From a virus: DNA of 20,380 bases. The stretch's first letter is position 1. Each line of letters opens with the position of its first letter. Shown here piece after piece: positions 130 to 20,380 of the stretch. A model generated the notes under the pieces. That model was given only the letters and a program-made list of their open reading frames with translations. It ran no database searches and was not told the origin of the DNA. Where the stretch lies: the IMG/VR virus record IMGVR_UViG_3300021365_001427, positions 1 to 20,380 of that record. The stretch is one strand, 5' to 3'. The translations under genes were made by a program, and so were the position numbers.

Positions 130-181
130 TTTTCCAAATATCCACTTGCAATCTTGGACTGTAGCGATAACCCTTTGTCAT
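113..181 (-). CDS. Displaced 22-codon C-terminal tail of QueE (other frame)
   Basis: Immediately at the TGA of the main queE frame, an ATG (179-181) overlaps the stop as ATGA and opens 22 codons ending in TAA at 113-115. The peptide ends SPRLQVDIWKNAWGT, which is the conserved C-terminal signature of QueE proteins, preceded by K-G-Y-R-Y. Adding one A to the GAATGA at the junction (GAAATGA) would join it to the upstream 268-residue frame as V-A-A-L-E-M-T-K-G-Y-R-Y-S-P-R, which is how intact family members read. It is therefore a piece of queE rather than an independent gene, unless translational coupling yields a separately made tail. The frame change could be a true deletion, a sequencing error in a short A run, or a recoding site. 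Confidence 0.75.
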   Translation of the reverse strand: MTKGYRYSPRLQVDIWKNAWGT

Positions 182-984
182 TCCAATGCTGCTACTTCTT
201 TGACATTCAAATGGTACTGATTGGGAATGCCGCCTACTGGCATCAAGTATACCGGACCATGGAAACCATTGTCTCTATACTGTTTTACTGCACGATCTAC
301 ATCTTCAACGTCTGCTTCTGTGGCCACAACAAACTTGAGATAGGTATGTCCGTGACTTTGGTAGTGTTTGATAATGTCCGGCTTGATGGCATCTTCCCAC
401 TTCTCGCCCGAGCAAGGCAGTTTTGCACTTACACTAAACGTAAGTCGATCACTGTAACGACCAAACTCAGTAAACTCGTTTAAAAACTTGCAGAATTCAT
501 CGCTCAGTGGCTGTGTGCCATTTGTTTCAAATGTGATGTTTTGCAATCCAGAAAGTTTGCACAATTTGATAATGCCAGGCCAAGCACGTTGCCAACCTAG
601 CAATGGTTCACCGCCTGTGATAACCAAGTGTACATCTTGTCCAAACTGTTTGCCATCACTCCAGCGATTGTTAGGAATCAATTTGTGCATGTGTTGCACA
701 ATGTCTTGAGATTCCATAACTGGACTAAACTTTTTAAAGTCCTTGTGCCAACTTGCATAACTGTCGCAGCCAAACTCAGTGAGCGGTAAGTCTTCATACT
801 TGGAAAACTTGTCTACATTTTTGGCAATTTGCTCTGGATTGTCTGTGTGTTCACCAGCAGGCATACCAAAGCCTCTACACTCAAAGTTACAACCAAAGCT
901 GCGCAAGAATACGCTAGGAACTCCTGCCCACTTGCCTTCACCTTGTAAACTGTAGAAGATTTCTGCTACTTTAACTTTGCTCAT
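178..984 (-). CDS. queE: QueE, 7-carboxy-7-deazaguanine synthase (radical SAM), C-terminus frameshifted
   Basis: QueE converts 6-carboxy-tetrahydropterin to 7-carboxy-7-deazaguanine, the step that builds the deazapurine ring. The frame codes for 268 residues. The N-terminus has S-L-Q-G-E-G (12-17) and G-V-P-S-V-F-L-R (21-28), typical of the family. Cluster ligands appear to be C32, C36 and C73: the first two are in GCNFEC and the third is in the GCDS motif, separated from C36 by an unusual 36-residue insert. A glycine-rich SAM motif, V-I-T-G-G-E-P-L-L, lies near residue 120, and F-E-T-N-G-T follows near 152. The frame ends at TGA just before the conserved tail, which continues in the -1 frame to base 113. 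The start overlaps the upstream phosphoribosyltransferase by ATGA. Function is clear; whether the protein is active depends on the junction. Confidence 0.9.
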   Translation of the reverse strand: MSKVKVAEIFYSLQGEGKWAGVPSVFLRSFGCNFECRGFGMPAGEHTDNPEQIAKNVDKFSKYEDLPLTEFGCDSYASWHKDFKKFSPVMESQDIVQHMHKLIPNNRWSDGKQFGQDVHLVITGGEPLLGWQRAWPGIIKLCKLSGLQNITFETNGTQPLSDEFCKFLNEFTEFGRYSDRLTFSVSAKLPCSGEKWEDAIKPDIIKHYQSHGHTYLKFVVATEADVEDVDRAVKQYRDNGFHGPVYLMPVGGIPNQYHLNVKEVAALE

Positions 985-1577
985 TTCATTATCTCCTCAT
1001 TTGGATCCCAACGTTTCCACCATTCTTCCCAGGGAAAAACAATCCAACTTGGATCTTCAATTTTGTTTATTTCTTGCGCACTGTAGTTTGTATCAAGTTC
1101 ACTTTCGCTTGCTAGATTATCGTATAGCACTGCAAAGCGCACTGTATTTCCCCATACTGCATTCCAAACAGCTTCGCACTCTTCTCTATCACCAGGTGAG
1201 CAACTGCTTTCCCAGTCTTGCTTTATCCAGTTTATTGTAGCACCACTATCGTTAATGTCATCCATTATTAGAACCTTTTTACGGCAAGCGGGATCCCATC
1301 GTGCATTTGGAATGTCACGCTTGGCTTGATTGTTATAACCAAACACTTCTTCGCTCATCCAGAGGTTGCTCTCAACCTCGCCGTTTCCATCGCGCAAACG
1401 TACATCCAGTGTGTACATTTTAACATCAAGATACTGACTGAGCAAGTTTGCTGGTGTTAGTCCACCTCGTGTGATGCCCACAATGTAGTCGGGTAACCAG
1501 TTATCTTGCTGCATCTGACGCAGTATTTCCTGTGTTTGACGTTGTACATCGTCCCATGTTACAAATACTTTTTTCAT
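981..1577 (-). CDS. Type I phosphoribosyltransferase (purine-salvage type)
   Basis: The protein is 198 residues. It carries the PRPP-binding signature V-L-I-M-D-D-I-N-D-S-G-A-T at 102-114, with the paired acidic residues and small-residue loop of type I phosphoribosyltransferases. An upstream I-V-G-I-T-R-G-G-L at 32-40 matches the strand and pyrophosphate loop of the same fold. The C-terminal W-I-V-F-P-W-E-E-W resembles the W-x-x-F-P-W-E end seen in xanthine, guanine or hypoxanthine phosphoribosyltransferases, so a 6-oxopurine substrate is the best guess. It would make a nucleotide from a free base and PRPP in the cytoplasm. It is linked by ATGA overlaps to a glycosyltransferase upstream and to queE downstream, which suggests either guanine recycling (a base freed by DpdA exchange is one source) or handling of a deazaguanine. 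That role is inference. Confidence 0.85.
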   Translation of the reverse strand: MKKVFVTWDDVQRQTQEILRQMQQDNWLPDYIVGITRGGLTPANLLSQYLDVKMYTLDVRLRDGNGEVESNLWMSEEVFGYNNQAKRDIPNARWDPACRKKVLIMDDINDSGATINWIKQDWESSCSPGDREECEAVWNAVWGNTVRFAVLYDNLASESELDTNYSAQEINKIEDPSWIVFPWEEWWKRWDPNEEIMK

Positions 1578-2410: not shown

Positions 2411-3027
2411 TATCTATTCTCCACTACTTTGTCAGCAAGCCCCCATTCAACTGCTTGTGCGGCAGTAAGGAATGTATCAAACTTCATAGTTTCACTCATT
2501 TCTTCGTAGGTTTTGCCTGCTGTATTGTGCCTAACATAAAGTTCAGTTAGACGTCTATTAACTTTCTTTGACTCTTCCATGCTGCGTACTGCATCTTCAA
2601 ACTGTAGTTCTTGTACATACACACTGCCTGACGTGCCGCGTGTACCTGAACTTACACGATGAATCATTGTGCGACTCTCAGGAAGCACAATACGTTTACC
2701 TGCTGTACCTGCTTGTGCAAGAAAACTGCCCATTGAGCATGCTTGTCCAATAACCACAGTACTTACATCGCACTTGATGAATTGCATTGTATCATAGATA
2801 CCAAGGCCTGCACTTACCTGGCCGCCTGGACTGTTGATGTACAACAAGATGTCCTTGTCAGGATCTTCACTTTCCAAGAACAGCAATTGTGCAATAATGC
2901 TATTGGCCATGTTGTCCTCAACTGGACCGTTAAGCATTACAATGCGATCTTTGAGCAAGCGACTGTAAATGTCGTATGCACGTTCACCTTTTGAAGTAGT
3001 CTCTACTACCATTGGGATCAATGACAT
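2410..3027 (-). CDS. clpP: ClpP-like serine protease
   Basis: At 205 residues this is full length for ClpP. The catalytic triad is in place: serine 98 in G-Q-A-C-S-M-G-S, histidine 123 in R-T-M-I-H-R and aspartate 184 in K-F-D-T-F-L-T-A. The strand [11 protein letters not shown] (65-75) and the C-terminal A-V-E-W-G-L-A-D are also standard. ClpP forms a barrel-shaped peptidase that degrades unfolded chains delivered by a Clp ATPase. No ClpA, ClpX or ClpC gene is in the window, so it would have to work with a host unfoldase, act alone on small peptides, or mix with host subunits. ClpP homologues occur in several marine T4-like phages. It overlaps queD upstream by TAATG and the glycosyltransferase downstream by TAATG, indicating coupled translation. 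Confidence 0.93.
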
Positions 3028-3503
3028 TATTCAGTAAACCTTTCTTTGCGTATTATATAAGGGGTATAGATGGCACTGTTTGCGCCATGTTCTGCACACT
3101 CTGCACTTTCGCACCAGCAACGGTCATTGGTTGCTTCACGGATAAGTTTGTCAGCAAAGCGCCATGCATGTTCTGCAAACTTTTCTGCACCAACACCTGC
3201 AACAATGTTAAGTTGTGCTAGGCCTTTTTCTTCCAGTACTCGAAAGTCATCCAAGTGAGGATCATTTTCATCTAATACAACTTTATGATCAAAACTATCT
3301 TCAAGCCATTGCTTTAGTGGCTTTAGTCCACCAAAGTCTACTGCCCAGTTTTTGTTGTCAAGTTCACTGCATCCAAATACAAATTTAAATTGTAAACTGT
3401 ATCCATGCAAGAACTTGCAATGCGAATGATCTGCATGCGGTTGACGGAACACTGCGCTTAATCCAATGTTGTGTCCATATGTTTTTGTGCTGTAATATGG
3501 CAT
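3027..3503 (-). CDS. queD: QueD-like 6-carboxy-tetrahydropterin synthase (6-PTPS family)
   Basis: A 158-residue T-fold enzyme. It would convert dihydroneopterin triphosphate, the FolE product, to 6-carboxy-tetrahydropterin for QueE. Catalytic cysteine 29 sits four residues before the L-H-G motif (H33), and F-D-H at 71-73 gives the Asp-His pair of the active site. D-F-G-G-L-K at 56-61 matches the D-F-x-x-L-K of the family. One difference stands out: the usual zinc triplet His-Gly-His reads His-Gly-Tyr (33-35), while extra histidines occur at 23, 26 and 28 in H-A-D-H-S-H. The zinc may be held by a changed ligand set. A good ribosome site, AGGAGA, lies a few bases before the ATG. The 69-base gap upstream holds only a weak hairpin. 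It overlaps clpP by TAATG. Confidence 0.88.
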
Positions 3504-5204: not shown

Positions 5205-5843
5205 TTAATAACTCTGTGCTAATCGCCACATCAAGTATGCCTTGCTCTCAATGGGATCATACTTTGCATCTTCATCACGCAGATTGCTTACAATAGTTCC
5301 TGGTGTAGGATCCACAAAGTGTGGCATGCTGTAACGTGTTTGATCGATGTGTGTGTTTACCACTCTGTGCTTTGTGCTAACAAAGTAATCGTTAGTCCAA
5401 CGCTGGAGTAAATCACCAATGTTAACCACTACACCGTCTTGTGCATAGGGAACAGGATGCCATGTACCTTTGAGATCCTGTACTTCAAGTCCTGGCACAT
5501 CATTGATTTGCCATAACAGAGTAATGGTGCCGTAGTCACTGTGTTCACCAATACGCATCTGCTTGTCCTCTAGTGGACCAGTGTACGCAGGGTAGTGAAT
5601 GACTCGTGTTGTATTATATGGATCCTGATGCGCATCTACCAGTGTAGTACCGCAGTCTAGGATAGTATCAAACTTGGCAAGTATACGCAGAGTTAAATCA
5701 TCTGCAATACGAATAGTTTCTAATCCTGTTGTACGCAGATCAACTTCCTCAGGCCATAGTTCATCTGGCATGCGTGTATTGTTGTAGTTAAAACTTTCTT
5801 TCATATCCTTGGGAGCAGTTGGGTCTACATTTTCTGCACCCAT
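5205..5843 (-). CDS. Fe(II)/2-oxoglutarate oxygenase, catalytic part (downstream of an in-frame stop)
   Basis: This 212-residue segment is the jelly-roll catalytic part of an isopenicillin-N-synthase-type dioxygenase. Iron ligands are H101 and D103 (G-E-H-S-D-Y-G) and H159 (S-T-K-H-R-V). R170 with S172 (T-R-Y-S) is the 2-oxoglutarate-binding pair. The ATG at 5843 is internal: the frame is open up to a TAA at 5874-5876, and beyond it the same frame holds the N-terminal domain. The ten codons between the stop and this ATG read Q-A-E-N-N-L-G-Y-S-V, a normal continuation of the enzyme. No good ribosome site precedes the ATG, so this part may not be made alone. Oxygenases of this fold hydroxylate or desaturate many small molecules; the substrate here is unknown. 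Confidence 0.85.
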   Translation of the reverse strand: MGAENVDPTAPKDMKESFNYNNTRMPDELWPEEVDLRTTGLETIRIADDLTLRILAKFDTILDCGTTLVDAHQDPYNTTRVIHYPAYTGPLEDKQMRIGEHSDYGTITLLWQINDVPGLEVQDLKGTWHPVPYAQDGVVVNIGDLLQRWTNDYFVSTKHRVVNTHIDQTRYSMPHFVDPTPGTIVSNLRDEDAKYDPIESKAYLMWRLAQSY

Positions 5844-5873
5844 AACACTGTATCCTAGATTGTTTTCTGCTTG

Positions 5874-6062
5874 TTAACTGTATATCTTTTTGGTGTACAA
5901 GTCCAGTTCAAAGAACTGCTTCATGTAATCAAACCAGTCTTTCATGGTTTGTTGATCTTGTTTGTCTAGTGTATTGGTAAAGACTGCGAAGCCCACTGTT
6001 GTGTAGGCTTCGCGAATCTCGTCCAGTACTGTTTCTGAGTTGAAATCAATAACTGGAATCAT
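5874..6062 (-). CDS. Fe(II)/2-oxoglutarate oxygenase, N-terminal domain, ended by an in-frame TAA
   Basis: The 62 codons match the N-terminal (DIOX_N-type) domain of isopenicillin-N-synthase-like oxygenases: M-I-P-V-I-D-F at the start, then an amphipathic helix, then T-V-G-F-A-V-F-T-N, with F-F-E-L-D at about 50-54. The ribosome site GGAAAC lies in the end of the upstream binding-protein gene. The TAA at 5874-5876 lies exactly in frame with the catalytic part (the two ATGs are 219 bases apart, 73 codons). One base change (from AAA, CAA or GAA, for example) would restore a protein of 285 residues, normal for the family. The gene is therefore a nonsense mutant, a readthrough case or a sequence error. 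Confidence 0.8.
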   Translation of the reverse strand: MIPVIDFNSETVLDEIREAYTTVGFAVFTNTLDKQDQQTMKDWFDYMKQFFELDLYTKKIYS

Positions 6063-6064
6063 TT

Positions 6065-7138
6065 TTAGTTTCCTGGTACGTTGGCTTTGATGCCTTCTAC
6101 ATAGTACATCATACTATTAAGATGTGCATCGTCTGCAATTTCACCTGCTTTAAGTTGTACTTTACCTTTGTTGTCCAATAATGGACCAGTAAATGCAAAA
6201 TACTTGCCTGCTTCAATAGCATCCTTGATTTCGTTTGCTTTAGCAGCAACATCTGCTGGCATGTTAGTAAACGGTGCCATCTGTACACTACCATCATCCA
6301 TATGACCAAAGTAGTCACCTGTTTTCCAAGTGCCGTTCATTACTTCGCCAACACGCTTTACATAGTAAGGACCCCAGTTGTCAATAGTTGCAGTCAACTG
6401 TGCTTTAGGAGCAAACTTGATCTGATCACTTGCTTGACCAAAGCCCAACTTGCCTTCTGATTGTGCAGCCTGCAATGGAGCAGGTGAGTCAGTGTGCTGT
6501 GCAACCATGTCACAACCTTCTGCCATCATAACTTTAGCAGCCTGCGACTCTTTGCCTGGATCATACCAAGTGTTTGCCCAAGTAATCATGATCTCTACAT
6601 CTGGGTTCATCTTCTTTGCACCCAAGTAGTATGTGTTAATCTCACGAATAACTTCTGGGATTGGGAAAGCAGCAACATAACAAATTTTGTTTGTCTTTGT
6701 CATCATGCCTGCAATAATACCCTGTACATGTCTTGCTTGATACAGACGTAAACCATATGTTGCCATATTGTCTGCACGTTTGTAACCAGTTGCATGCTCA
6801 AATGCTACATCTGGAAACTCTTTGGCAACTTTAAGCATTGATGGCATATAGCCAAAACTGGTTGCAAAGATAATATCTGCTCCGCCTTTTGCCATTTGAC
6901 GCATTACACGCTCGGCATCAGGGCCTTCTGGTACACTTTCAACAAAAGTTGTCTCAACTTTGTCGCCGTATGCTTCTTCTACTTGCTGACGACCAATGTC
7001 ATGACGATATGTCCAACCATGGTCACCAATAGGTCCGACGTAGATAAATCCAACCTTTACTTTGTCTGCTGCACTTGCACCCATTGCCATACCAAGTACG
7101 ACTGCGGCTGCAACTACAATTGTTTTAATAATATTCAT
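6065..7138 (-). CDS. BMP-family (PnrA/TmpC-like) periplasmic substrate-binding protein
   Basis: A 357-residue protein with a clear signal peptide: K5, a hydrophobic core rich in V, A, L and M, and a likely cleavage after G-A-S-A (about residue 23). No lipobox cysteine is seen, so it would be a free periplasmic protein. The mature start V-K-V-G-F-I-Y-V-G-P-I-G-D-H-G-W-T is typical of the BMP family, whose studied members bind purine nucleosides and pass them to an ABC transporter. No permease or ATPase gene is in the window, so it would depend on a host transporter. A ribosome site (AAGGAAA) precedes the ATG. It sits between folE and the oxygenase. This is a host-type metabolic gene, comparable in kind to the PstS proteins carried by cyanophages. 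Ligand unproven. Confidence 0.9.
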   Translation of the reverse strand: MNIIKTIVVAAAVVLGMAMGASAADKVKVGFIYVGPIGDHGWTYRHDIGRQQVEEAYGDKVETTFVESVPEGPDAERVMRQMAKGGADIIFATSFGYMPSMLKVAKEFPDVAFEHATGYKRADNMATYGLRLYQARHVQGIIAGMMTKTNKICYVAAFPIPEVIREINTYYLGAKKMNPDVEIMITWANTWYDPGKESQAAKVMMAEGCDMVAQHTDSPAPLQAAQSEGKLGFGQASDQIKFAPKAQLTATIDNWGPYYVKRVGEVMNGTWKTGDYFGHMDDGSVQMAPFTNMPADVAAKANEIKDAIEAGKYFAFTGPLLDNKGKVQLKAGEIADDAHLNSMMYYVEGIKANVPGN

Positions 7139-7165: not shown

Positions 7166-7852
7166 TTATCGAGGACTAAACCCTTGTTGCAATTTGATAT
7201 TGTCCATAAACTCTTTTTTAGTGCCGTCGTCGTTTTTGAAAGCACCTTTAAGCACAGTTGTTTGTGTTAAACTACTGTGTGCCATAATGCCTCTATTCTC
7301 ACAACATCCATGTGTTGCTTGAATGTAAACTCCAACGTCTTTACTGCCAGTTGCATTTTGTATTTCTCTAGCAATATCCATTGCAAGTTCTTCTTGCAGT
7401 GTTCCGCGCCTTGCACACCATTGTGCAATTCGTGTATATTTTGAAAGTCCAATCAGTTTGTCAGCAGCAATGATACCAATGTATGCAACACCAGTCACCG
7501 GCTGATGATGGTGCGAACAAACACTTTTAAGTTCGCTGCGCACTACCAACATACCATCATATCCATCCTCAACATGATTGGGAAATGCTGTTGCATTGGG
7601 CATTGGATCATAACGACCACTCATTAATTCATTGATGTACATCTTTGCTAGACGTCTGCCTGTGTCATTGCTGTTGGGATCATTTGCTCTGTCAATGATT
7701 AAACTGTCTAATACATCTTCAAACTTGGTGGTAAGTTCTTCAATTAGCAGTTGTTTTTCGCCTTCGTGTAGATAGGGTGCAATGTTATCGCCGGCCCAGT
7801 ATCTGCCTCCAGCATTGCGAATTCGTTGTGTAATTACTCTTGAAATTGTCAT
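7166..7852 (-). CDS. folE: FolE, GTP cyclohydrolase I
   Basis: FolE opens GTP to dihydroneopterin triphosphate, the entry step to both folate and 7-deazaguanine. The frame has 228 residues. Zinc ligands appear as C112 and H115 in V-C-S-H-H-H and C183 in H-G-C-C-E-N-R-G. The family motifs L-I-G-L-S-K (133-138) and a run from L-Q-E to the helix A-R-E-I are present. The canonical C-E-H-H reads C-S-H-H-H here, a small variation at a conserved position. The ATG is preceded by GGAG and by a promoter at 7898-7926. With queD and queE in the neighbouring unit, a role in making the base used by DpdA is likely; folate supply is the alternative. Confidence 0.95.
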   Translation of the reverse strand: MTISRVITQRIRNAGGRYWAGDNIAPYLHEGEKQLLIEELTTKFEDVLDSLIIDRANDPNSNDTGRRLAKMYINELMSGRYDPMPNATAFPNHVEDGYDGMLVVRSELKSVCSHHHQPVTGVAYIGIIAADKLIGLSKYTRIAQWCARRGTLQEELAMDIAREIQNATGSKDVGVYIQATHGCCENRGIMAHSSLTQTTVLKGAFKNDDGTKKEFMDNIKLQQGFSPR

Positions 7853-11289: not shown

Positions 11290-11715
11290 TTAATGACTAG
11301 TTGAAGGGTAGCTGATAATGCATCCGTTTTCACCGTCTTCGCTTACATTAATTACAACGTTACGGCCTGGATACTTGCCAGCTATATGTGTATATAGCTC
11401 GTCTGCAATCATCTCACAACTTTTATAATCAAGCTGTAGTATGTCTCCGCTGTAAAGACGCTTGAGCCAACGCTGGAACTGAATGAACTCAATGTCTCTG
11501 TCATTGTGGAATACATCAATTGCCACTTTAAAATGAAACATATGACGATGTGGATATCCTAAAAATGAAACATCATCCCAGTCACCTGTTGCCAGCTTTG
11601 GATCATCTAAAGCCGCAGGATACTTGTGAATGCCTTCTTGCTGGAATGTTACCCAAATTGATCTACGAGCAATATCTTTGCTGTGTTCAATATTTTCACG
11701 TTGTTCTTGATTCAT
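11290..11715 (-). CDS. Divergent T-fold protein resembling 6-pyruvoyl-tetrahydropterin synthase/QueD
   Basis: A 141-residue protein. Near residue 30 it has G-I-H-K-Y-P-A, and in the middle H-R-H-M-F-H-F-K-V-A-I-D-V, comparable to the H-G-H-N-Y-x-L-x-V motif that holds zinc in QueD-like enzymes. I-E-F-I-Q-F-Q-R-W-L-K follows at the position of the family's D-F-x-x-L-K. The end, S-C-E-M-I-A-D-E-L ... V-V-I-N-V-S-E-D-G-E-N-G, parallels the P-T-x-E-N-L-A ... V-x-V-x-E-T part. I do not see the catalytic Cys in the usual place. If the fold is right, this is a second 6-PTPS relative beside the QueD gene at 3027-3503. It overlaps the upstream unknown gene by TAATG. Confidence 0.6.
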   Translation of the reverse strand: MNQEQRENIEHSKDIARRSIWVTFQQEGIHKYPAALDDPKLATGDWDDVSFLGYPHRHMFHFKVAIDVFHNDRDIEFIQFQRWLKRLYSGDILQLDYKSCEMIADELYTHIAGKYPGRNVVINVSEDGENGCIISYPSTSH

Positions 11716-12218
11716 TATACTACCTCGTCCTTGCTGTAGTCACTCCACGGTGTAAACACAGTTCTGTCCATGAGTTTGTGTAAGCTGTGTGTCCACACGC
11801 CCGGGTTGGTTGCGTCAAAGTCATTGTCGTCAATTTTGACCATTGTGTTATAGTTGTACAAGTTGACATAAGGAATACTGATACGCAACTGTGCTATAAA
11901 GTTGTTGTATTCGTCATAACCATCATCGTGAATCTCTTCCAGTTGACTGTATGGAACATCCAGTGTACACAGTATACCCTGTTTGAGGAAATACTTGATC
12001 ATGTGTTCCCATTCACCATATTCCTCAATGCTGTCTTTGGGAGGATCATAGCTGTGATTAGCACCAAAGAAGATGTGTTCGCAGTCTTTGTATGCTTGTT
12101 CAATGTCTTCAACTGGCTGCACACCAACTACAAACAGTGTGCGTTTGCCAAATGCTGGTGTATGTTCTACTTCGGTGCCGTAAAAGAATTTAACAGCTTC
12201 ATGTCCGTCACGATTCAT
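11715..12218 (-). CDS. Unknown acidic phage protein
   Basis: A 167-residue protein that I cannot assign. The sequence alternates hydrophobic strands and helices as in an alpha/beta domain: R-T-L-F-V-V-G-V (26-33), then a helix, then H-I-F-F-G-A-N (48-54), and G-I-L-C-T-L-D-V-P (80-88). The pattern could be part of a TIM-barrel or Rossmann-type fold, but no catalytic motif is clear. The C-terminal end is acidic with scattered histidines. No signal peptide or membrane segment is seen. It overlaps the DUF465 gene by 11 bases and the T-fold gene by TAATG, so these are made together and this protein may be a partner of the T-fold protein. Confidence 0.75.
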   Translation of the reverse strand: MNRDGHEAVKFFYGTEVEHTPAFGKRTLFVVGVQPVEDIEQAYKDCEHIFFGANHSYDPPKDSIEEYGEWEHMIKYFLKQGILCTLDVPYSQLEEIHDDGYDEYNNFIAQLRISIPYVNLYNYNTMVKIDDNDFDATNPGVWTHSLHKLMDRTVFTPWSDYSKDEVV

Positions 12219-12419: not shown

Positions 12420-12448
12420 ACTATACACTGGTTATGACATATTGTCAA
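12420..12448 (-). promoter_or_regulatory. Sigma-70 promoter inside the 3' end of dpdA
   Basis: On the minus strand TTGACA (12443-12448) and TATAGT (12420-12425) are 17 bases apart, one mismatch in total. The -35 hexamer is made by the last codons of dpdA, and the -10 lies just beyond its stop. It would start the DUF465 to aminotransferase unit, so that unit can be expressed apart from the replication genes. Confidence 0.75.
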
Positions 12449-13958
12449 GTGCTTCCAGTGCCTTTTCGTCAAATTCTTGTTCATCTGCAACATCTTCTTC
12501 GACGTCAAACAAACTGTTAAACTGTGTTGCAGCATTTACAATCTTCTTACCAGTGAAGCCTCTTGTGCCTTTAACACTGTCCCAGAATTTGCTGTATTCG
12601 TTGATGATGTTCATTGACTTGGCGTAATCTCTCTGTTCAAACACACGCTCAACAACATCACGGAATAGGATTCTGTCAAATGTTTCCTGTACCAGCATGC
12701 CTGGCACTACACCTGCATCATATTCTCTGTTGGCACGTTGTACACTTTCAATGTGCATCCAAACATTGTGGCCCATAAGCAATGCATACGAAAAACTGTC
12801 CCATGATGTTTTGCCTTCTTTGCCAATTTTGTTTAGCATGCCCGGAGCATAGTGACACACATCGCCAATGGTAAGACGCTCAGTGATTGGGCTGTCTTCA
12901 AAAAGTTTGTGTACGCCATCAGCAAGCACTGCATCACGGAACGGTGTACTATCACCAGAATACTTTTTGTTGTCAATGGTGGGTTCCATCTGGTAACTCC
13001 ATTTGCCGCGATCATCGATGCGTATACTGTTATACACCTGGCCATTTGCTGTAGCAAGGAATGGACTTGCACAGTCAAAACTGATAGTGAAGTTTTCGTT
13101 AGCATGACGGCGCACACTGCGCTGTATGTCAGTGAGCAAGCATGCCCATTCCAGTTTGCTTGTGCCCAGGAAGTGCATCCAGTCATGTTGACCTTTTTCC
13201 AACAAGCCTTCGTGGATAAGCGTAACCAATCTTTTCAGCACAAGATGCACATCGCACATGTTCTGTCCACCCATGCCCCAACCATCAAAAGGACGATCTG
13301 CTTTGTCGCTGCAAAAGCCTTTCATTTTGTCATACCAATGATCTGCTTCAGCGTGATTGCTGCCCTGTAGTACATTTAGGATTTTGAGATCGCCGCCACG
13401 ATTGGCCATCCAAAATTCATTATTGAAGTGAGTTGCGTTCACAGCATCATCATAACTGTGAATGCCGCAGAGCTCACTTGCTTTTTTATCCAGGTAAGTC
13501 CATGTAGGAATATCCATGGTCATGCCATGTGTAGCAATGCCCATCTGCCAAGCAATAACTTGCTCGCGTTTTTTCTCTGCATTCTTGTCTTTGGGATCGG
13601 CCCACTGCCCGGGCCATACACCTTTGGCAATCTGAAATCCGCCTGAGTCAGCAAGCATGATAGTGTCTGCTTCTCTGTTGCGAACCATGTCCTCTTTGGG
13701 CACATGTTTGCTGAGATCCATATCAGCGTGTCCAGCACTGTACAAACTGTATTTGTATGGAAATAAACTTTCTTTGCTGTTAAGCCAGTTCATTGATTCC
13801 ATATTGCCCAATCCTTTGGGCAGTCTGTCACCTATTGTGCTTACTTGATCAGGATAGCGTTCCTTGCCAATATAGCCAGCATAAAAACTGCTAATAGCCG
13901 GAAGAAATATAGCATAGTCTTTTTGCTTTGCAGTTAGGTTATCTTGTTTGAAGTTCAT
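12432..13958 (-). CDS. dpdA: DpdA-like DNA 7-deazaguanine transglycosylase (TGT superfamily)
   Basis: A 508-residue member of the tRNA-guanine transglycosylase superfamily, of the DpdA type that exchanges guanine in DNA for a 7-deazaguanine. The general acid/base aspartate is D104 in L-A-D-S-G-G-F-Q, and the nucleophile is D295 in S-F-D-C-A-S-P, matching the F-D-C motif of TGT. G-W-G-M-G-G (226-231) and H-F-L-G-T-S-K (262-268) match the substrate-pocket turns G-x-x-V-G-G and M-G-V. The C-x-C-x-x-C zinc site of tRNA-acting TGT is not seen, which favours a DNA role over tRNA. It overlaps the gene before it by 20 bases, has AAGG ahead of its ATG, and is the last gene of the polymerase/clamp unit. 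The acidic tail (residues 480-505) is unusual. Confidence 0.88.
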   Translation of the reverse strand: MNFKQDNLTAKQKDYAIFLPAISSFYAGYIGKERYPDQVSTIGDRLPKGLGNMESMNWLNSKESLFPYKYSLYSAGHADMDLSKHVPKEDMVRNREADTIMLADSGGFQIAKGVWPGQWADPKDKNAEKKREQVIAWQMGIATHGMTMDIPTWTYLDKKASELCGIHSYDDAVNATHFNNEFWMANRGGDLKILNVLQGSNHAEADHWYDKMKGFCSDKADRPFDGWGMGGQNMCDVHLVLKRLVTLIHEGLLEKGQHDWMHFLGTSKLEWACLLTDIQRSVRRHANENFTISFDCASPFLATANGQVYNSIRIDDRGKWSYQMEPTIDNKKYSGDSTPFRDAVLADGVHKLFEDSPITERLTIGDVCHYAPGMLNKIGKEGKTSWDSFSYALLMGHNVWMHIESVQRANREYDAGVVPGMLVQETFDRILFRDVVERVFEQRDYAKSMNIINEYSKFWDSVKGTRGFTGKKIVNAATQFNSLFDVEEDVADEQEFDEKALEALDNMS

Positions 13959-14574
13959 TTTTTACCTTGCGAATCCATCTGTAACAACCCGGAACTGCTG
14001 GATATTGATTCCAGACGTTAAAGTCATCTTGTAATGTTTGTTCATTGATATATTCTGCGTTCTCGTCTTGTATACTCCACTCTGGAAATACATTAAACTT
14101 TAATTCTGGAATAGTATTAACTAACTTGTTAAGACCCAATGGTCCAAATGTAATACACATTCCCCAGGCACTTCCTAGTATAATCCAATCTTGTACAGTT
14201 GGCCAATTCTTTTGCACATGATTGCGAAATGTATCAACACTACTTAGATGAACAGTAGACTCAGTGAAAATTTTATCATGCAAGTGTTGATCTGTTTTTT
14301 CGTGTCCAGCACAGTTTATTAAATCTGATAGCACTTTTTGATCTTTGTTTGTCCAAAGATACTGATTTAATGTATTGTACACACTTTTATCTTGATAGTC
14401 AAGTTGTAAATTGTTACAACAATTTACCACAGCACCAATATTAAAGAGTTTCAGTTGTTCAACTGCACGTTTATAAAATGGCCGATTTGTAGGAACATCC
14501 CAGCAATCGATACACAATAGACCCCAAACATTGGGTGCTTTATGCCAGTCATGTATGTATCGATTGTCAATCAC
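13939..14574 (-). CDS. Unknown protein between clamp and dpdA
   Basis: A 211-residue protein that I do not recognise. It starts at a GTG (14572-14574) that overlaps the clamp stop as TAGTG; no nearby ATG is in frame, so coupled translation from the clamp gene supports this start. It has a hydrophobic strand V-W-G-L-L-C-I-D-C-W-D (16-26), a helix, then I-G-A-V-V-N-C-C-N-N (47-56), and later W-I-I-L-G-S-A-W-G-M-C-I (130-141), an alternating pattern like a small Rossmann-type alpha/beta domain. Seven cysteines are present without a metal-site spacing. It overlaps dpdA by 20 bases, so a link to base modification or replication is suggested by position only. Confidence 0.75.
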   Translation of the reverse strand: MIDNRYIHDWHKAPNVWGLLCIDCWDVPTNRPFYKRAVEQLKLFNIGAVVNCCNNLQLDYQDKSVYNTLNQYLWTNKDQKVLSDLINCAGHEKTDQHLHDKIFTESTVHLSSVDTFRNHVQKNWPTVQDWIILGSAWGMCITFGPLGLNKLVNTIPELKFNVFPEWSIQDENAEYINEQTLQDDFNVWNQYPAVPGCYRWIRKVKNELQTR

Positions 14575-15305
14575 TACTTGCTCTGAGCAGGCAAAATATA
14601 GTTGTATACAGCAATGCCGCTATCAACTGTGATCTTTGTTGCACCTTCATCTGAGATGCGTACTGTTTTATCACCAGTCAAATTCATGATTGCAATAAAT
14701 TGCTGTACTGGCCAACTCCAAGTGCGTGTTAGTTTGCCTGCTACATCATGCTGAAACACAAAGTCACCAGCGTGTGTGCTGTGATCGCCAAACAAGAACT
14801 TCAAGTTACCATCTTCAGTTTTGGTCTGGAATGTTGTTTCTTCTGCATTTGCTTGTGCTTGCATCTTGAGACGCATAATGCTAGCAGTTGTAGGTTCAAA
14901 CTCCACAGTCCAGTTAACGTCTTTCATCTTGACAGTTTTCAGCTTTTCAGAAACAATTTCACTTACCATAAAGCGATAGTCGTTTTTAAAGTCTCCGGCA
15001 GCATTCTTAAAATGCAATCCAACTGCTGCCTGTTCGCCGTTGCGCTCCTGTCGTGTTACAGAGATATCAGCACCTTCTCGATATTCTCCAATGTTAAGAA
15101 GAATTTTTAGTTTAGCCAAGTTAGGCATACCAAATGTACCCATAAACTCAGCTACTGGTGTATGGAATTTTGCGTTCAACACAACACTTTTGTCTTCTGC
15201 TAGACCATCAATGTTTGTTTCTTTGTCTGTGCCTGTAATTTTAATAAGGTCGATACAGCCCAAATCATAGCTGTGTTCAACCAAGTCTAGTAGATAGTCT
15301 CTCAT
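14574..15305 (-). CDS. 45: Sliding clamp, gp45-like DNA polymerase processivity factor
   Basis: A 243-residue clamp subunit; T4 gp45 has 228. The first half has L-N-A-K-F-H-T-P-V-A-E-F and L-K-I-L-L-N-I-G-E-Y, and the second half has V-E-F-E-P-T-T-A-S-I-M-R-L-K-M-Q followed by a run of short strands, consistent with two PCNA-type repeats. The end, Y-N-Y-I-L-P-A, fits the last strand. The protein would form a trimeric ring that holds gp43 on DNA and in T4-like phages also links replication to late transcription. The clamp loader genes 44 and 62, which neighbour gene 45 in T4, are not in the window. A strong ribosome site, AGGAGA, precedes the ATG. Confidence 0.85.
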   Translation of the reverse strand: MRDYLLDLVEHSYDLGCIDLIKITGTDKETNIDGLAEDKSVVLNAKFHTPVAEFMGTFGMPNLAKLKILLNIGEYREGADISVTRQERNGEQAAVGLHFKNAAGDFKNDYRFMVSEIVSEKLKTVKMKDVNWTVEFEPTTASIMRLKMQAQANAEETTFQTKTEDGNLKFLFGDHSTHAGDFVFQHDVAGKLTRTWSWPVQQFIAIMNLTGDKTVRISDEGATKITVDSGIAVYNYILPAQSK

Positions 15306-15324: not shown

Positions 15325-16269
15325 TTAAAAATGTTTAATTGCAGCCAGGCTTTGTCCACCTTTTAGACTGCTAAGTGTTCCTGGGCGTTGTATTTCTAAC
15401 CAACTTACGTTGTTATCCATGTCAAAACTGGCAAGTATCTTGAATCCTATCTTGGCACATGCATCTTTAATTAAGTGTCCTGGAGTATAAGTGTAATACG
15501 AATTTTCAAAGTTGTCAACTCCAATTGGATAATCGCAGTTGTTAAAGGTAAAAATAGCCACACCGCCTGGTCTTAATGCATGCATCAACCCAGATAGATA
15601 TTTTTCAATCAGTCTAATTGGTCTAAAGTTAAAATAGTCAACTGCAACAGCAACTCCAAATTGTCCAGCTGGCAGCACACCAAGAGGGTTATTGGCAGTC
15701 TCATCAACTGCATAGTATCTTAAACGTCGTTGATAATCCGGTGTCCACATTTTTTTAACTTCAACAAACATATCGTCGTGTTCATCGAGCAAGTAAAGCG
15801 GATCAAGATCAACTAATTTTCCAGTAACATCGCCTAGTCCAGGATTAAGTTGCAACCCTGGATATTTCCATTCTGTGTAGTTGCCCACACGACCAAGAAA
15901 AAAGTCTCTAGTTTCTGGTTCATATAGCAAGTTTTTAAATCTATTTCGATCTAGCTTGTATGCATACTCATCATTGAGGCCTTCTTCATAGATTTTTTCA
16001 CTTTTTTCAAAGTAAGGTTTTTCAATAGTATCAAAAAAATAGTTAATTTGAAATTTAAATTCGTCAATGTCTTTTTGCATTCCAACAAGATTGTCTAATA
16101 TGGTTTTCTCTCGCATTTGAATGCAGTATTTGAGGTTGTTAAAGTCGATATTTTGAACATCTAGGTCTTCACTGACTCTGCTCAATAATTCTTCAATGTT
16201 GGCGTGAGCATGTTTTACACTCAAACCGTTTACCATTTCTTTGTATGTCAGTAACTTGCTTAACTTCAT
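15325..16269 (-). CDS. SAM-dependent methyltransferase-like protein
   Basis: A 314-residue protein. The C-terminal part fits the late strands of a class I methyltransferase: F-G-V-A-V-A-V-D-Y-F-N-F (206-217), a helix, then A-L-R-P-G-G-V-A-I-F-T-F-N-N (234-247), which is the common strand-five L-x-P-G-G motif. L-Y-L-L-D-E-H-D-D (176-184) may be the SAM-ribose acidic strand. The typical G-x-G-x-G loop is not clear. The first 110 residues are helical and charged. The gene starts in a TAATG overlap with the DNA polymerase and lies just before the clamp, an unusual insertion between 43 and 45. Substrate unknown; DNA or a small molecule are both open. Confidence 0.6.
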   Translation of the reverse strand: MKLSKLLTYKEMVNGLSVKHAHANIEELLSRVSEDLDVQNIDFNNLKYCIQMREKTILDNLVGMQKDIDEFKFQINYFFDTIEKPYFEKSEKIYEEGLNDEYAYKLDRNRFKNLLYEPETRDFFLGRVGNYTEWKYPGLQLNPGLGDVTGKLVDLDPLYLLDEHDDMFVEVKKMWTPDYQRRLRYYAVDETANNPLGVLPAGQFGVAVAVDYFNFRPIRLIEKYLSGLMHALRPGGVAIFTFNNCDYPIGVDNFENSYYTYTPGHLIKDACAKIGFKILASFDMDNNVSWLEIQRPGTLSSLKGGQSLAAIKHF

Positions 16270-18929
16270 TATTCAAACTCAAACAAACTGCTAAAGGTAT
16301 TGGTGGTGTTTGTTTCTTGTGCTAGATCCCATGCTAGAACGTGCAGCAAATTGTCAATCTTTTGATCTACCACAGTTGCCTCCATTGCTGCATCATCGAA
16401 AGGCAAGTCTTTGAACCATTGTGGAATGTGTAGTTCATCTGTGGGATAGCCAATTGAGGTCCAGTTAAGAGGATTTGATTTGAGTTTGCACACAATGGTT
16501 TTCATACCATCAATGATGCTTTGTGAATAGTTATCACTGTTCATCTTCTTCATTGAATTCCAGTTCATAGCTGCTCTAACATGCCCAGGCATGTTGGCTC
16601 TTCCCAGCTTCTTCTCTTCGGCACTGTACTTGGTCAAGTTGTTAACACGTTTAGGTGAACCTTTTTCCCACGCTGGACGTTCTTTGAAGTCATACTTAAA
16701 GCTCTTGATCATCTCAATGATCTCTTCACGCCCTGCACCGGCAAGCACACGAGTTAGCAGTGTCATCAAGAACTTTTGGATTACAACTGGCGTGTCTGAG
16801 CGTTTCAAATCCAAGCCCATTGCCTTGATCTTGCCTTGTTTGCCTTCGACATCAAGTCGTTTGCCTTCAAGATCAAAAATGTTGATTGCATAACGCTTCT
16901 TGGTAATAAACAAGCCTCTGTCTGCAATACTTTCTCTGCCGCCTTTGATGATCACGCCGTTTGATCTTGGAACGTGAAATGCCTGTTCCATAAACGCTGG
17001 CCAACTGTCGTTTAACTGATCACTGATAGCATCATACAGTTGTATGCAAATCTCTTTGTTCCACTCCATGTTGCCTGCTTCTACGTCCTTCTTGACAATA
17101 GGCCATGCACTGAAGTACACACTATCAGTATCGCCATAGATTACAGCATCACCAACGTGATCATATGTTCCTGTGATACATTCATTTACAAAACTGTCCA
17201 TGTGATGTGCAATAGCTCTACCAGTTAGTGTTGTGCTTTGCCCAATGCGCTTGTCAAAAAACCTACAACCTGGATTAAGGATAGCACCATACAAGCTATT
17301 TAGATTGATCTTCTTGACCAGCTGACGTTTATCTAGAAACTCACGTTCATCTAGGTCGGTTGATGCACGAAGTTTTGCTTGAATTTCTTGACGTTCTCTA
17401 TACCAACGTGCAAGCAAACCAGGAACAACACCTTCTTTTTCGTATGTAAAGATAGTACCGTTTGCGCTCAGTATCCAAGGTTGATTGCTGTCAAACACAA
17501 TCTTCCAAATCTCTGCTGCACTGTGTACTGTTTCGTCGCCGTTTTCCCAGTCAATTGTGATCTCAGTGCCAACTTCCTGTTTCATAACGGCAGTGTATTC
17601 CAGTGTGCCAAACAGGCCTTCCCACGCCATTGCAAATGAACTTTTGTTTGCAACTTTATCCTTGATATAACGATCAGTCATAATTGGACGCAGTTGTCCA
17701 ATGATTGTTTCATTGCCCATGTTGAGCGCACGAATAGCACTAGGATACAGACTGTTGATGTCAATGGCGCCAATCCAGTCGTGCAATCCCTTCTTGGGAT
17801 ATGCAACATACGCACCTGCCGCTGCTGTGTCTTCGTCTGTTAAGCGTTCTCGTCGGTTGGGAACAACTAGTCCTTGTTCATGTGCTTCATTGATAATTGC
17901 TTGTTCTGTAACTGCTACAGCACCCATTGTGGTTTGTAGTAGCACAGTGTTTGCATGTGCCAATTCATTTGCCAGTGCAAGAAAACGCAGTTTCTTGTCC
18001 AGCTTGTCTAGCAAAAGTGTATCTTGTCTGTTGTATTCAATGAACGTTTTAAAGTTGTGATTGTACAGGTGATCCAGTGTGCCTTCATAAGCAGTCTTAC
18101 GCTCATCAAGTTCATATTCACCAATTGCATCCAAACTGTAACTGTGCCGCTCTTCATAGGTGTACTTGCGATACAGTTGCATGTAATCCATATGCACTCT
18201 GCCAATAAGATCGAATGTGATATTTTCAGCACCAAAGCGTTCAAATGTGCGCTTCTTGGGCAGTTGACTCCACAAACAAAAGCGTCTTGTGTCGTCTTTG
18301 CTCAATACTCTTGCCACTCTGTTAACAGTATAAGGAATATCATAACCCTCACTGTTCCAACCACTTAGTACATCCGCATCTTCAATGAGATCCAAGAACA
18401 CACCAAGCATCTCTTCTTCGCGTTCGAACAACATGGTGTTTTCAAATTGATCGCAGATTTCTTGTGCTGTTTCCCAGCTCATGTTCTTGGGAGGAATAAC
18501 CAGTGTAACCAGTTGTTCCATCCATTGCAAGTAAACAGATATAGCAGTAATTGCATTGAACGGATCGTTGGTTGGTGAATAGCCGCGCACTGGATCAAAG
18601 TCAACTTCAATATCAAAGAACGCTGTTTGCAATTTGGGTGCAACGTCATCTTTGTAGTTTTCTTCAAAACAGCGAAACACTGGATTGATATCACTTTCAA
18701 AGATCTGTTTGCCCGATTGCAGTCGCAGTTCTTTGCGGAACTCTTTGTTGTTCCGACTGCTAAATCGACTCACTGGTGAGCCATATATGCTTTTGTGTTT
18801 GCCGCGAGGATCCGCATAGTAAAACACATAGCTGGCAGGGTATTCACGATACTCGCGCCTGCCGTCTACACGTTCTACTACATGGATACGATCTTTGTCT
18901 CTGTCAAATAGAGCGTCAACATAACTCAT
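16269..18929 (-). CDS. 43: Family B DNA polymerase, gp43-like
   Basis: At 886 residues this is close to the 898 of T4 gp43 and is complete. The 3'-5' exonuclease has Exo I F-F-D-I-E-V-D (D106, E108), Exo II L-S-G-W-N-S-E-G-Y-D (188-197) and Exo III Y-N-R-Q-D-T (299-304). The polymerase has motif A D-I-N-S-L-Y-P-S (D390), motif B K-K-I-N-L-N-S-L-Y-G (539-548) and motif C Y-G-D-T-D-S (D600, D602). All catalytic residues are intact, so it should both extend and proofread. The last residues, F-S-S-L-F-E-F, resemble a short hydrophobic clamp-binding tail. It begins six bases after the DsbA-like gene and overlaps the methyltransferase-like gene by TAATG. Confidence 0.98.
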   Translation of the reverse strand: MSYVDALFDRDKDRIHVVERVDGRREYREYPASYVFYYADPRGKHKSIYGSPVSRFSSRNNKEFRKELRLQSGKQIFESDINPVFRCFEENYKDDVAPKLQTAFFDIEVDFDPVRGYSPTNDPFNAITAISVYLQWMEQLVTLVIPPKNMSWETAQEICDQFENTMLFEREEEMLGVFLDLIEDADVLSGWNSEGYDIPYTVNRVARVLSKDDTRRFCLWSQLPKKRTFERFGAENITFDLIGRVHMDYMQLYRKYTYEERHSYSLDAIGEYELDERKTAYEGTLDHLYNHNFKTFIEYNRQDTLLLDKLDKKLRFLALANELAHANTVLLQTTMGAVAVTEQAIINEAHEQGLVVPNRRERLTDEDTAAAGAYVAYPKKGLHDWIGAIDINSLYPSAIRALNMGNETIIGQLRPIMTDRYIKDKVANKSSFAMAWEGLFGTLEYTAVMKQEVGTEITIDWENGDETVHSAAEIWKIVFDSNQPWILSANGTIFTYEKEGVVPGLLARWYRERQEIQAKLRASTDLDEREFLDKRQLVKKINLNSLYGAILNPGCRFFDKRIGQSTTLTGRAIAHHMDSFVNECITGTYDHVGDAVIYGDTDSVYFSAWPIVKKDVEAGNMEWNKEICIQLYDAISDQLNDSWPAFMEQAFHVPRSNGVIIKGGRESIADRGLFITKKRYAINIFDLEGKRLDVEGKQGKIKAMGLDLKRSDTPVVIQKFLMTLLTRVLAGAGREEIIEMIKSFKYDFKERPAWEKGSPKRVNNLTKYSAEEKKLGRANMPGHVRAAMNWNSMKKMNSDNYSQSIIDGMKTIVCKLKSNPLNWTSIGYPTDELHIPQWFKDLPFDDAAMEATVVDQKIDNLLHVLAWDLAQETNTTNTFSSLFEFE

Positions 18930-18935
18930 TTATGA

Positions 18936-19193
18936 TTATAGTGTCCGTCCAGCGGTTGTAAGGATTTCTTCAAGTAGTTCTTGATCTTCTTTTTCAGTGG
19001 TGTAACTGGCTTTGTGTGCAATGCGAATTGCTTTTTTAAGCACACTTGGCTTGATTTGCATTTCTTCTGCAATAGCTTTTACTGTGTCGGATAAGCCGGC
19101 GTTGAGTGCTTCAACTTCACTCATTACTTGCATGCCTTCATTGATAATCTGTGTTAGTTTTGCTTTGCTTTCGCTGTCAAATTGTACGGTCAT
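18936..19193 (-). CDS. dsbA: DsbA-like phage double-stranded DNA-binding protein
   Basis: An 85-residue helical protein. T4 DsbA, a late-transcription-related DNA-binding protein, has 89 residues. The two share the order of a short helix, a segment like L-N-A-G-L-S-D-T-V-K-A-I-A-E-E (30-44), then a loop and helix M-Q-I-K-P-S-V-L-K-K-A-I-R-I-A-H-K (45-61), and an acidic E-D-Q-E-L-L-E-E-I end. The match is by pattern and length, so moderate. It is the first gene of the replication unit, with an AAAGGAG ribosome site and a consensus promoter 26 bases upstream. This is not the thiol oxidase that shares the name. Confidence 0.6.
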   Translation of the reverse strand: MTVQFDSESKAKLTQIINEGMQVMSEVEALNAGLSDTVKAIAEEMQIKPSVLKKAIRIAHKASYTTEKEDQELLEEILTTAGRTL

Positions 19194-19219: not shown

Positions 19220-19248
19220 ATTATATAAGGTTTGTGCATCAGTGTCAA
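19220..19248 (-). promoter_or_regulatory. Consensus sigma-70 promoter for the replication unit
   Basis: On the minus strand TTGACA (19243-19248) and TATAAT (19220-19225) are separated by exactly 17 bases, a full match to the consensus. The leader before the DsbA-like ATG would be about 20 bases. The -35 hexamer lies in one arm of an inverted repeat at 19241-19272. Confidence 0.88.
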
Positions 19249-19281: not shown

Positions 19282-20331
19282 CTAACTGCAATAGTCTTCC
19301 AGGTTTCCGTTACGGCGCAAGTCCAATGTTGCACAATGAAGGCCGCCAGCAAGAGTCATGCCATGACGGAATTGGATCGGCACACAGTCAATTTTGTATT
19401 TTTCAAGTTCTTTCATTAGAGGCACTTGTGCGCTATCGCAGATAATAGTGCTAGGATTAACACTTAAAATATTCATTCCAATGTATGGACTACACGGCGA
19501 AATATAATCATCAACTTTTGAACCTTGCACTACACAGTCTTCGAAGTAAATTTTATCCCACTTTTCAAAAATGGCTGGACAGTTGTCTGGATTAACTCTG
19601 GTGCTGTTTAGCAATACCAATCCAGGACGTAGTGGGATAATGGTGCTATCAAAGTGTGCATAACTGTATACTTCACTGTAATGCAAACGATAGCCCATTG
19701 GCTCCAGCAAACGTTTTAGCCAGCGGAATCCTTTGATGTTGCCTGAGTTTGAAATTTGGTACAGTAGATCTTTTCCTACTTTAACAATGTTTGGAGCATC
19801 AAACAAAATTTCTAGATCTTTGAGCGTAGGCTTACCATCAATGTTATCAAACTGATAGTTGTCGTCTAACAGCCTAGGCTTTGGTGCAGCAAACCATAAT
19901 GCGCCATCATCAAATGCTTCATAGAAGATATCTTCATACAGTCTTGTTTCAAAGTATCTTGCTCTGGTTGGACTTGGTGTTTCAATTAACATATCACCAA
20001 GTGGCAATACAACATCTCTTGGGCACCAGCTATACCAACCTTGGCTTTTCCAGTCTGGTGTACTAAATTCTTTGCTATGATCAATCTTTTTTGGACGGTG
20101 TACAATTACACCCATTTTTTTAAGCGTATCTGCTAATCCATCAGCGTCTTCATTGGCTTCTTCAATAACCCAACTAGGATAAGGACCTTCCATGTGTTCA
20201 ATTTCTTTGATTGAATATGGCGCATAACTGAAACTGCGTGTGCTAATGTCCATGCTTACACGACTGTGATGTGCATGTCCAACAATTACTTCTTCCAATG
20301 GATCCCAATGGTTGTGTGTATTAACTTTCAT
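19282..20331 (-). CDS. Amidinotransferase (arginine:glycine amidinotransferase-like)
   Basis: Read from the ATG at 20329-20331 the protein has 349 residues; an upstream in-frame GTG at 20373 is less likely because AAAGAG lies just before the ATG. The guanidino-group-modifying fold is clear: D-A-P-N-I-V-K-V-G-K-D-L (about 176-187), the histidine region A-H-F-D-S-T-I-I-P-L-R-P-G (about 243-255) and the nucleophile C333 in G-G-L-H-C. The D-L-R-R-N-G-N-L end parallels animal AGAT. Such enzymes move an amidino group from arginine to an amine. The acceptor here is unknown: glycine, a polyamine or a modified base are candidates. It is read from outside the window and lies before the replication promoter. 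Confidence 0.88.
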   Translation of the reverse strand: MKVNTHNHWDPLEEVIVGHAHHSRVSMDISTRSFSYAPYSIKEIEHMEGPYPSWVIEEANEDADGLADTLKKMGVIVHRPKKIDHSKEFSTPDWKSQGWYSWCPRDVVLPLGDMLIETPSPTRARYFETRLYEDIFYEAFDDGALWFAAPKPRLLDDNYQFDNIDGKPTLKDLEILFDAPNIVKVGKDLLYQISNSGNIKGFRWLKRLLEPMGYRLHYSEVYSYAHFDSTIIPLRPGLVLLNSTRVNPDNCPAIFEKWDKIYFEDCVVQGSKVDDYISPCSPYIGMNILSVNPSTIICDSAQVPLMKELEKYKIDCVPIQFRHGMTLAGGLHCATLDLRRNGNLEDYCS

Positions 20332-20380
20332 AATGGCTCTTTCTGTTTGTTGCTGGGTATTTAACTTTTGCACAAGTCGT

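Follow-up and report, generated by a model that had tools for sequence, protein, structure and literature searches.

Why should a gene for a probable DNA base-exchange enzyme lie in the same unit as a phage's DNA polymerase and sliding clamp? The locus that raises this question lies in a 20.4-kb virus contig (the window), whose open frames and translations we read on the minus strand. In that direction the unit comprises o85, the polymerase, a 314-aa gene, the clamp, a 211-aa gene and the dpdA-like gene (Table 1). Neighboring genes are closely packed: the polymerase and 314-aa genes overlap by 1 nt, as do the clamp and 211-aa genes, the 211-aa gene overlaps dpdA by 20 nt, and gaps of 6 and 19 nt separate o85 from the polymerase and the 314-aa gene from the clamp. 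This order and its tight overlaps confirm the initial annotation, whose coordinates correspond to open frames; two members, o85 and the 314-aa gene, had been omitted from it. The consensus promoter that it placed at the start of the unit is present as a complete match, and a second promoter-like site overlaps the 3' end of dpdA. Because promoter hits were at background overall in number, both sites are suggestive only. The second site makes it plausible that the unit ends with dpdA. No Rfam elements were detected in the window.

Table 1. Features of the polymerase-clamp-dpdA unit and of the deazaguanine pathway genes in the window
Feature	Position	Strand	Basis
QueE-like radical SAM 7-carboxy-7-deazaguanine synthase	178-984	-	NCBIfam QueE, to 4.2e-13, below curated cut-offs
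QueD-like 6-carboxytetrahydropterin synthase	3027-3503	-	Family-model matches
FolE, GTP cyclohydrolase I, first step towards deazaguanines	7166-7852	-	Pfam 1e-39
Promoter-like site, 11/12, overlapping dpdA 3' end, before gene o62	12420-12448	-	Consensus match only
dpdA-like gene, predicted guanine transglycosylase, 508 aa	12432-13958	-	TGT fold of model
DpdA tail peptide QFNSLFDV, aa 479-486, proposed clamp-binding motif	12501-12524	-	Disordered tail
Codon of catalytic D295, motif FDCASP	13074-13076	-	Invariant in alignments
Codon of catalytic D104, motif DSGGFQ	13647-13649	-	Invariant in alignments
211-aa gene, lineage-specific, GTG start	13939-14574	-	Open frame
Sliding clamp, gp45-like, 243 aa	14574-15305	-	Profile-profile match; PHROG 12062
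314-aa conserved gene (mt314), polymerase-clamp interval	15325-16269	-	No significant family match
Family-B DNA polymerase, T4 gp43 type, 886 aa	16269-18929	-	Pfam DNA_pol_B 1.2e-34; PHROG 262 E 1.6e-188
Polymerase C-terminal peptide TFSSLFEFE, clamp-binding-type	16272-16298	-	Sequence
o85, small protein, first gene of unit	18936-19193	-	PHROG 12534; transcriptional-regulator-like PHROG 639
Sigma-70-like promoter TTGACA-17-TATAAT, 12/12, upstream of o85	19220-19248	-	Consensus match only

The dpdA-like protein was detected by none of the Pfam, NCBIfam, PHROG and PADLOC models, and PDB sequence searches with the DpdA and clamp profiles returned nothing useful. We built an AlphaFold2 model of the protein with 26 sequences (pLDDT 84), in which a catalytic barrel (approximately aa 12 to 440) is followed by a flexible tail (aa 465 to 508). 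Foldseek matched this model exclusively to tRNA-guanine transglycosylase (TGT) structures at ranks 1 to 36, with E values down to 1.5e-6, and the best VIA-align Z score was 19.9, to 2ash, over 305 residues (rmsd 4.5). Both catalytic aspartates listed in the initial annotation, D104 and D295, are invariant in alignments of 26 and 28 sequences. The modeled fold together with both aspartates supports the DpdA-like assignment, and the protein probably exchanges guanine in DNA for a protective base that resembles it. The clamp was identified by hhalign comparison with T4-type gp45 profiles (prob 93.4, E 2.6e-7); its homologue in Vibrio phage 2.275.O also matches PHROG 223, 'DNA polymerase processivity factor'.

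Relatives of DpdA occur in at least 600 viral stretches, of which the best 80 were retained; locus counts include near-duplicates and the window itself. The matches listed comprise about 90 loci, and in nearly all of them dpdA is closely preceded, on its own strand, by the polymerase and/or the clamp; the polymerase is present in 84. Wherever clamp and dpdA were both listed (89 of 89 loci), the clamp precedes dpdA on its strand at a distance of less than 1.5 kb, and the two genes abut or overlap in about 40 of those 89. Gene o85 is found upstream of the polymerase in most of the listed loci. Searching related phages for the same order, a check proposed in the initial annotation, thus recovered it in about 90 loci, including those of Pseudomonas jumbo phage PA5oct, whose DpdA (gene EST35_0316) has 32% identity, and of Vibrio phage 2.275.O, at about 29%. 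Such recurrence of polymerase, clamp and dpdA indicates that their linkage is more than chance. The order is not kept in Sinorhizobium phage Phosso, where the clamp lies about 174 kb from dpdA. A viral_contigs search for relatives of the PA5oct and Vibrio 2.275.O DpdAs found none. A 167-aa protein encoded at 11715-12218 (-) is conserved downstream of dpdA in 78 of the matches listed and has no family match.

A second link between DpdA and the replisome is suggested by the DpdA tail. Residues 465 to 501, predicted to be disordered in the model, contain QFNSLFDV, which resembles the C-terminal TFSSLFEF(E) of the phage's own polymerase. Among the matches listed, the tail pattern [FY]xx[LH]F(D/E/S) was found in 38 of 42 distinct relatives (less than 90% identical), and a looser pattern in 40. 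F480, L483 and F484 are conserved in 31 to 32 of 35 sequences, with residues 477 and 486 onward variable. Consensus sequences across relatives are xFNxLF(D/E) for DpdA and TFxxLF(E/D)(F/W) for the polymerase. Several DpdAs terminate exactly at FNALFD; in the window DpdA and many relatives, unlike in the polymerase, the peptide is internal, 20 to 36 residues before the end. The Phosso DpdA ends in EGLF, without an FxxLF tail. A few other DpdAs (L049, L067) have a degenerate internal motif; their ends, DLWENN or NLWDF, may represent a clamp peptide that has been relocated. Based on these sequence patterns, we interpret the tail as a conserved, polymerase-like, hydrophobic-acidic peptide, and thus a putative clamp-binding motif, within the flexible C-terminal part of the protein.

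Chance alone can produce short linear motifs, and this pattern was first noticed in these very proteins. A C-terminal peptide of this type occurs only in the polymerase and DpdA among the 402 ORFs of a near-identical 316-kb contig (G001), the 448 ORFs of PA5oct and the 520 ORFs of Vibrio 2.275.O. BLOSUM scoring against a single polymerase-tail sequence discriminated weakly in G001 and PA5oct, so we used a profile made from polymerase tails only, with PA5oct excluded. With this profile, the DpdA tail ranked first of 82,483 sequence windows in PA5oct and third of 98,571 in G001. The profile does not pick the Vibrio 2.275.O DpdA, whose tail instead follows its own polymerase: the two have changed alike (polymerase ANNTDLFDW, DpdA LNNNDLFGW), and the DpdA tail is the top match to that polymerase tail in its proteome. 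As a control, the T4 polymerase tail was used as query, and the best other C-terminal hit was a 187-aa ORF (39600-40163) with PSLDFLYE near its end. From its position we take this ORF for gp55, which is known as a clamp client. The risk of a chance motif is lowered, though not removed, by the polymerase-only profile and by the evidence from other lineages.

DNA archaeosine is found in phage 9g, and the DNA modifications of phages CAjan and 9g have already been measured by mass spectrometry. DpdAs of this type (Queuovirinae) share with the window family a relationship to TGT, replacement of G by 7-deazaguanine in phage DNA (predicted for the window family), FolE, QueD and QueE, a dpdA gene adjoining the clamp and polymerase, and a C-terminal LF peptide. 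They differ in length (about 310 aa) and in their clamp and polymerase, and are not alignable with the window family (hhalign prob 0.7). The gene order also differs, dpdA-clamp-polymerase versus polymerase-clamp-dpdA here. In 9g, dpdA is directly followed by the clamp and polymerase, an arrangement already present in public genomes, and the same order, in some cases interrupted by a small gene, occurs in Seurat, NP1, RHEph26, Yong-L2-223, PSTCR7, K4PH164 and viral contigs.

LF forms the exact C terminus of 21 of 24 sampled 9g-type DpdAs, some of them near-identical, and the remaining three end in LFDE, LFA and GFF; no other ORF of the 242 in the sampled loci ends in LF. An alignment of nine sequences with identities down to 24% has 28 invariant columns, which include the final two residues. 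The DpdA of phage R5C ends in QVSLF, fitting the bacterial clamp-binding consensus QLxLF (PMC4549789). A clamp-type tail is absent from the ParB-paired DpdAs of Lephleur, Finch and phiSM and from the DpdA2-like proteins of nt-1 and GR7B. ParB-paired DpdAs (Rosebush, Finch, phiSM; bacterial DpdA-DpdB-like) resemble the window protein in occurring with deazaguanine genes, but have a ParB-like partner protein and no LF tail. Vibrio phage nt-1 DpdA2 shares the catalytic motifs DSGG(F/L)Q and IS(F/Y)D, a weak profile match (E 0.003, prob 10) and a T4-like replisome, but is encoded 24 kb from gp45 and lacks the tail; only about 0.1% of G in nt-1 DNA is modified (PMC6884629). Judged by sequence, clamp-type tail and gene coupling are convergent between the DpdA family here and the unrelated 9g type. 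We lean towards the view that at least two unrelated phage DpdA lineages, the jumbo-phage family here with gp45-type clamps and the 9g family with a different clamp, independently became clamp clients by way of C-terminal peptides while others are ParB-paired, giving two targeting modes, with guanine replacement coupled to replication in the former.

Taken with the adjoining genes, the polymerase-like DpdA tail suggests that these phages modify DNA right behind the replication fork. We consider it likely that the protein is a DNA guanine transglycosylase of the DpdA type, with the TGT fold, and that it acts as a client of the sliding clamp encoded by the phage itself. In the proposed mechanism, QFNSLFDV would imitate the polymerase C terminus and dock into the hydrophobic pocket of the clamp. 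A ring left behind the polymerase would then hold DpdA on newly made duplex, where the enzyme would exchange guanine for a 7-deazaguanine base supplied by the FolE, QueD and QueE enzymes of the contig. Encoding polymerase, clamp and dpdA in a single unit would keep all three co-produced. On the simplest reading, these DpdAs are clamp clients, and guanine exchange would follow the fork. The replisome coupling drawn from gene order in the initial annotation is thereby strengthened, through the polymerase-like tail and the 9g-type convergence, and the overall reading is partly supported.

Co-expression alone offers an alternative account: all of these proteins are needed simultaneously, DpdA locates DNA unaided, and its tail serves stability, dimerization or packing. 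Phage replication and modification genes often cluster, and plasmid DNA can be modified with the remainder of the phage absent: 9g DpdA and Gat-QueC modify up to 18% of G in plasmid DNA in E. coli lacking a phage clamp (PMC6884629). Thus, the phage clamp is not strictly needed for 9g DpdA, and the host clamp could serve there. Co-expression, however, leaves unexplained both why the DpdA tail resembles that of the polymerase and co-varies with it and why the 9g-type DpdAs have LF tails, which are missing from three ParB-paired DpdAs and two DpdA2-like proteins. A packing role also fits poorly with a tail predicted to be disordered and not packed on the fold. We regard this account as unlikely.

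That the protein is instead an RNA-acting TGT for phage or host tRNA, linked to replication genes by chance, appears quite improbable. Its predicted fold is that of tRNA-TGT, and the solved structures that it matched are all tRNA enzymes. However, the CxCx2C zinc motif of the tRNA-TGT CxCx2C...H site is absent from the window DpdA sequence, the window contains no tRNA genes, and the linkage to polymerase and clamp is conserved. A profile search, which according to the initial annotation would refute its reading by placing the protein with tRNA-acting TGT or an unrelated family, gave no TGT sequence-profile match above cut-off. We assign a very low probability to the idea that the DpdA tail competes with the polymerase for the clamp, with polymerase turnover as the main role and base modification secondary. 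A common motif would imply that the same pocket is contested, but gp45-type clamps are trimers with several pockets, and the DpdA catalytic residues are invariant. Moreover, CAjan lacking dpdA is viable, with modification abolished (PMC6884629).

Recruitment of DpdA by the 211-aa gene product, which the initial annotation had offered as a possible partner, is barely credible despite the overlap of the two genes in the window, as the gene occurs in only 12 of about 90 loci among the matches listed, all close relatives or copies of the window virus, is strongly divergent (35 to 42% in L004, L005 and L013), and is missing between clamp and dpdA in the many other loci where these abut directly. 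Its structural model is of low confidence (pLDDT 57) and had no fold match. An isochorismatase-like reading had been guessed from its IDCW and C140 motifs; it was dropped, as that model matched nothing.

The proposed tethering has precedents in T4. The gp43, gp55 and gp33 proteins bind gp45 through interchangeable hydrophobic-acidic C termini (PMC2988020). These are likewise short peptides on a flexible arm, whereas here the putative motif, recognized from sequence, is on a base-modification enzyme. T4 alpha-glucosyltransferase binds gp45 (PMC6024577; Sommer 2004, with pull-down confirmation in PMC13216743) and is thus a phage DNA-modifying enzyme on a sliding clamp, as proposed for DpdA here. 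Unlike DpdA, it glucosylates hmC with no base exchange and shares no unit with polymerase and clamp. According to the 2026 study (PMC13216743), the share of T4 alpha-glucosylation is set mostly by expression level, not by the gp45 interaction. We found no paper linking DpdA to the sliding clamp, as judged partly by titles; PMC6884629 colors DNA metabolism genes in its Fig. 3 and does not mention the clamp. Nor did we find in the literature an account of how modification by phage DpdAs attains about 30% of guanines, or of how these enzymes select phage DNA. A clamp-binding tail, if true, would be a concrete, testable mechanism for both, and a signature for finding further clamp-tethered DNA-modifying enzymes in phages. 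The analysis also places a widespread DpdA family that profile libraries had missed.

The supply of the base was examined through the pathway genes. G001 has the same FolE, QueD and QueE set as the window and no match to QueC, which leaves two candidates for the base: preQ0, if a host QueC takes part, and the QueE product. In this contig, an NAD+ synthase (SGGIDS protein, L100:4113-4892) directly follows queE, at the place where other phages have QueC. A xanthine/hypoxanthine phosphoribosyltransferase-like gene at 981-1577 (-) overlaps queE by 4 nt; homologues occur in 19 loci, where they often lie close to queE or folE, and the gene may act in the deazaguanine pathway.

Three further genes were noted in the window. 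A 2OG-Fe(II) oxygenase gene at 5205-6062 (-) is split into two open frames (5874-6062 and 5205-5843), representing a broken gene or a sequencing error. Upstream of the promoter of the unit, 19282-20373 (-) encodes a weak arginine-deiminase-like protein with three homologues elsewhere in G001. The gene at 6065-7138 (-) is predicted to encode a BMP-like periplasmic substrate-binding protein, named from its sequence, which apparently has a signal peptide; related genes are found in G001 and L014.
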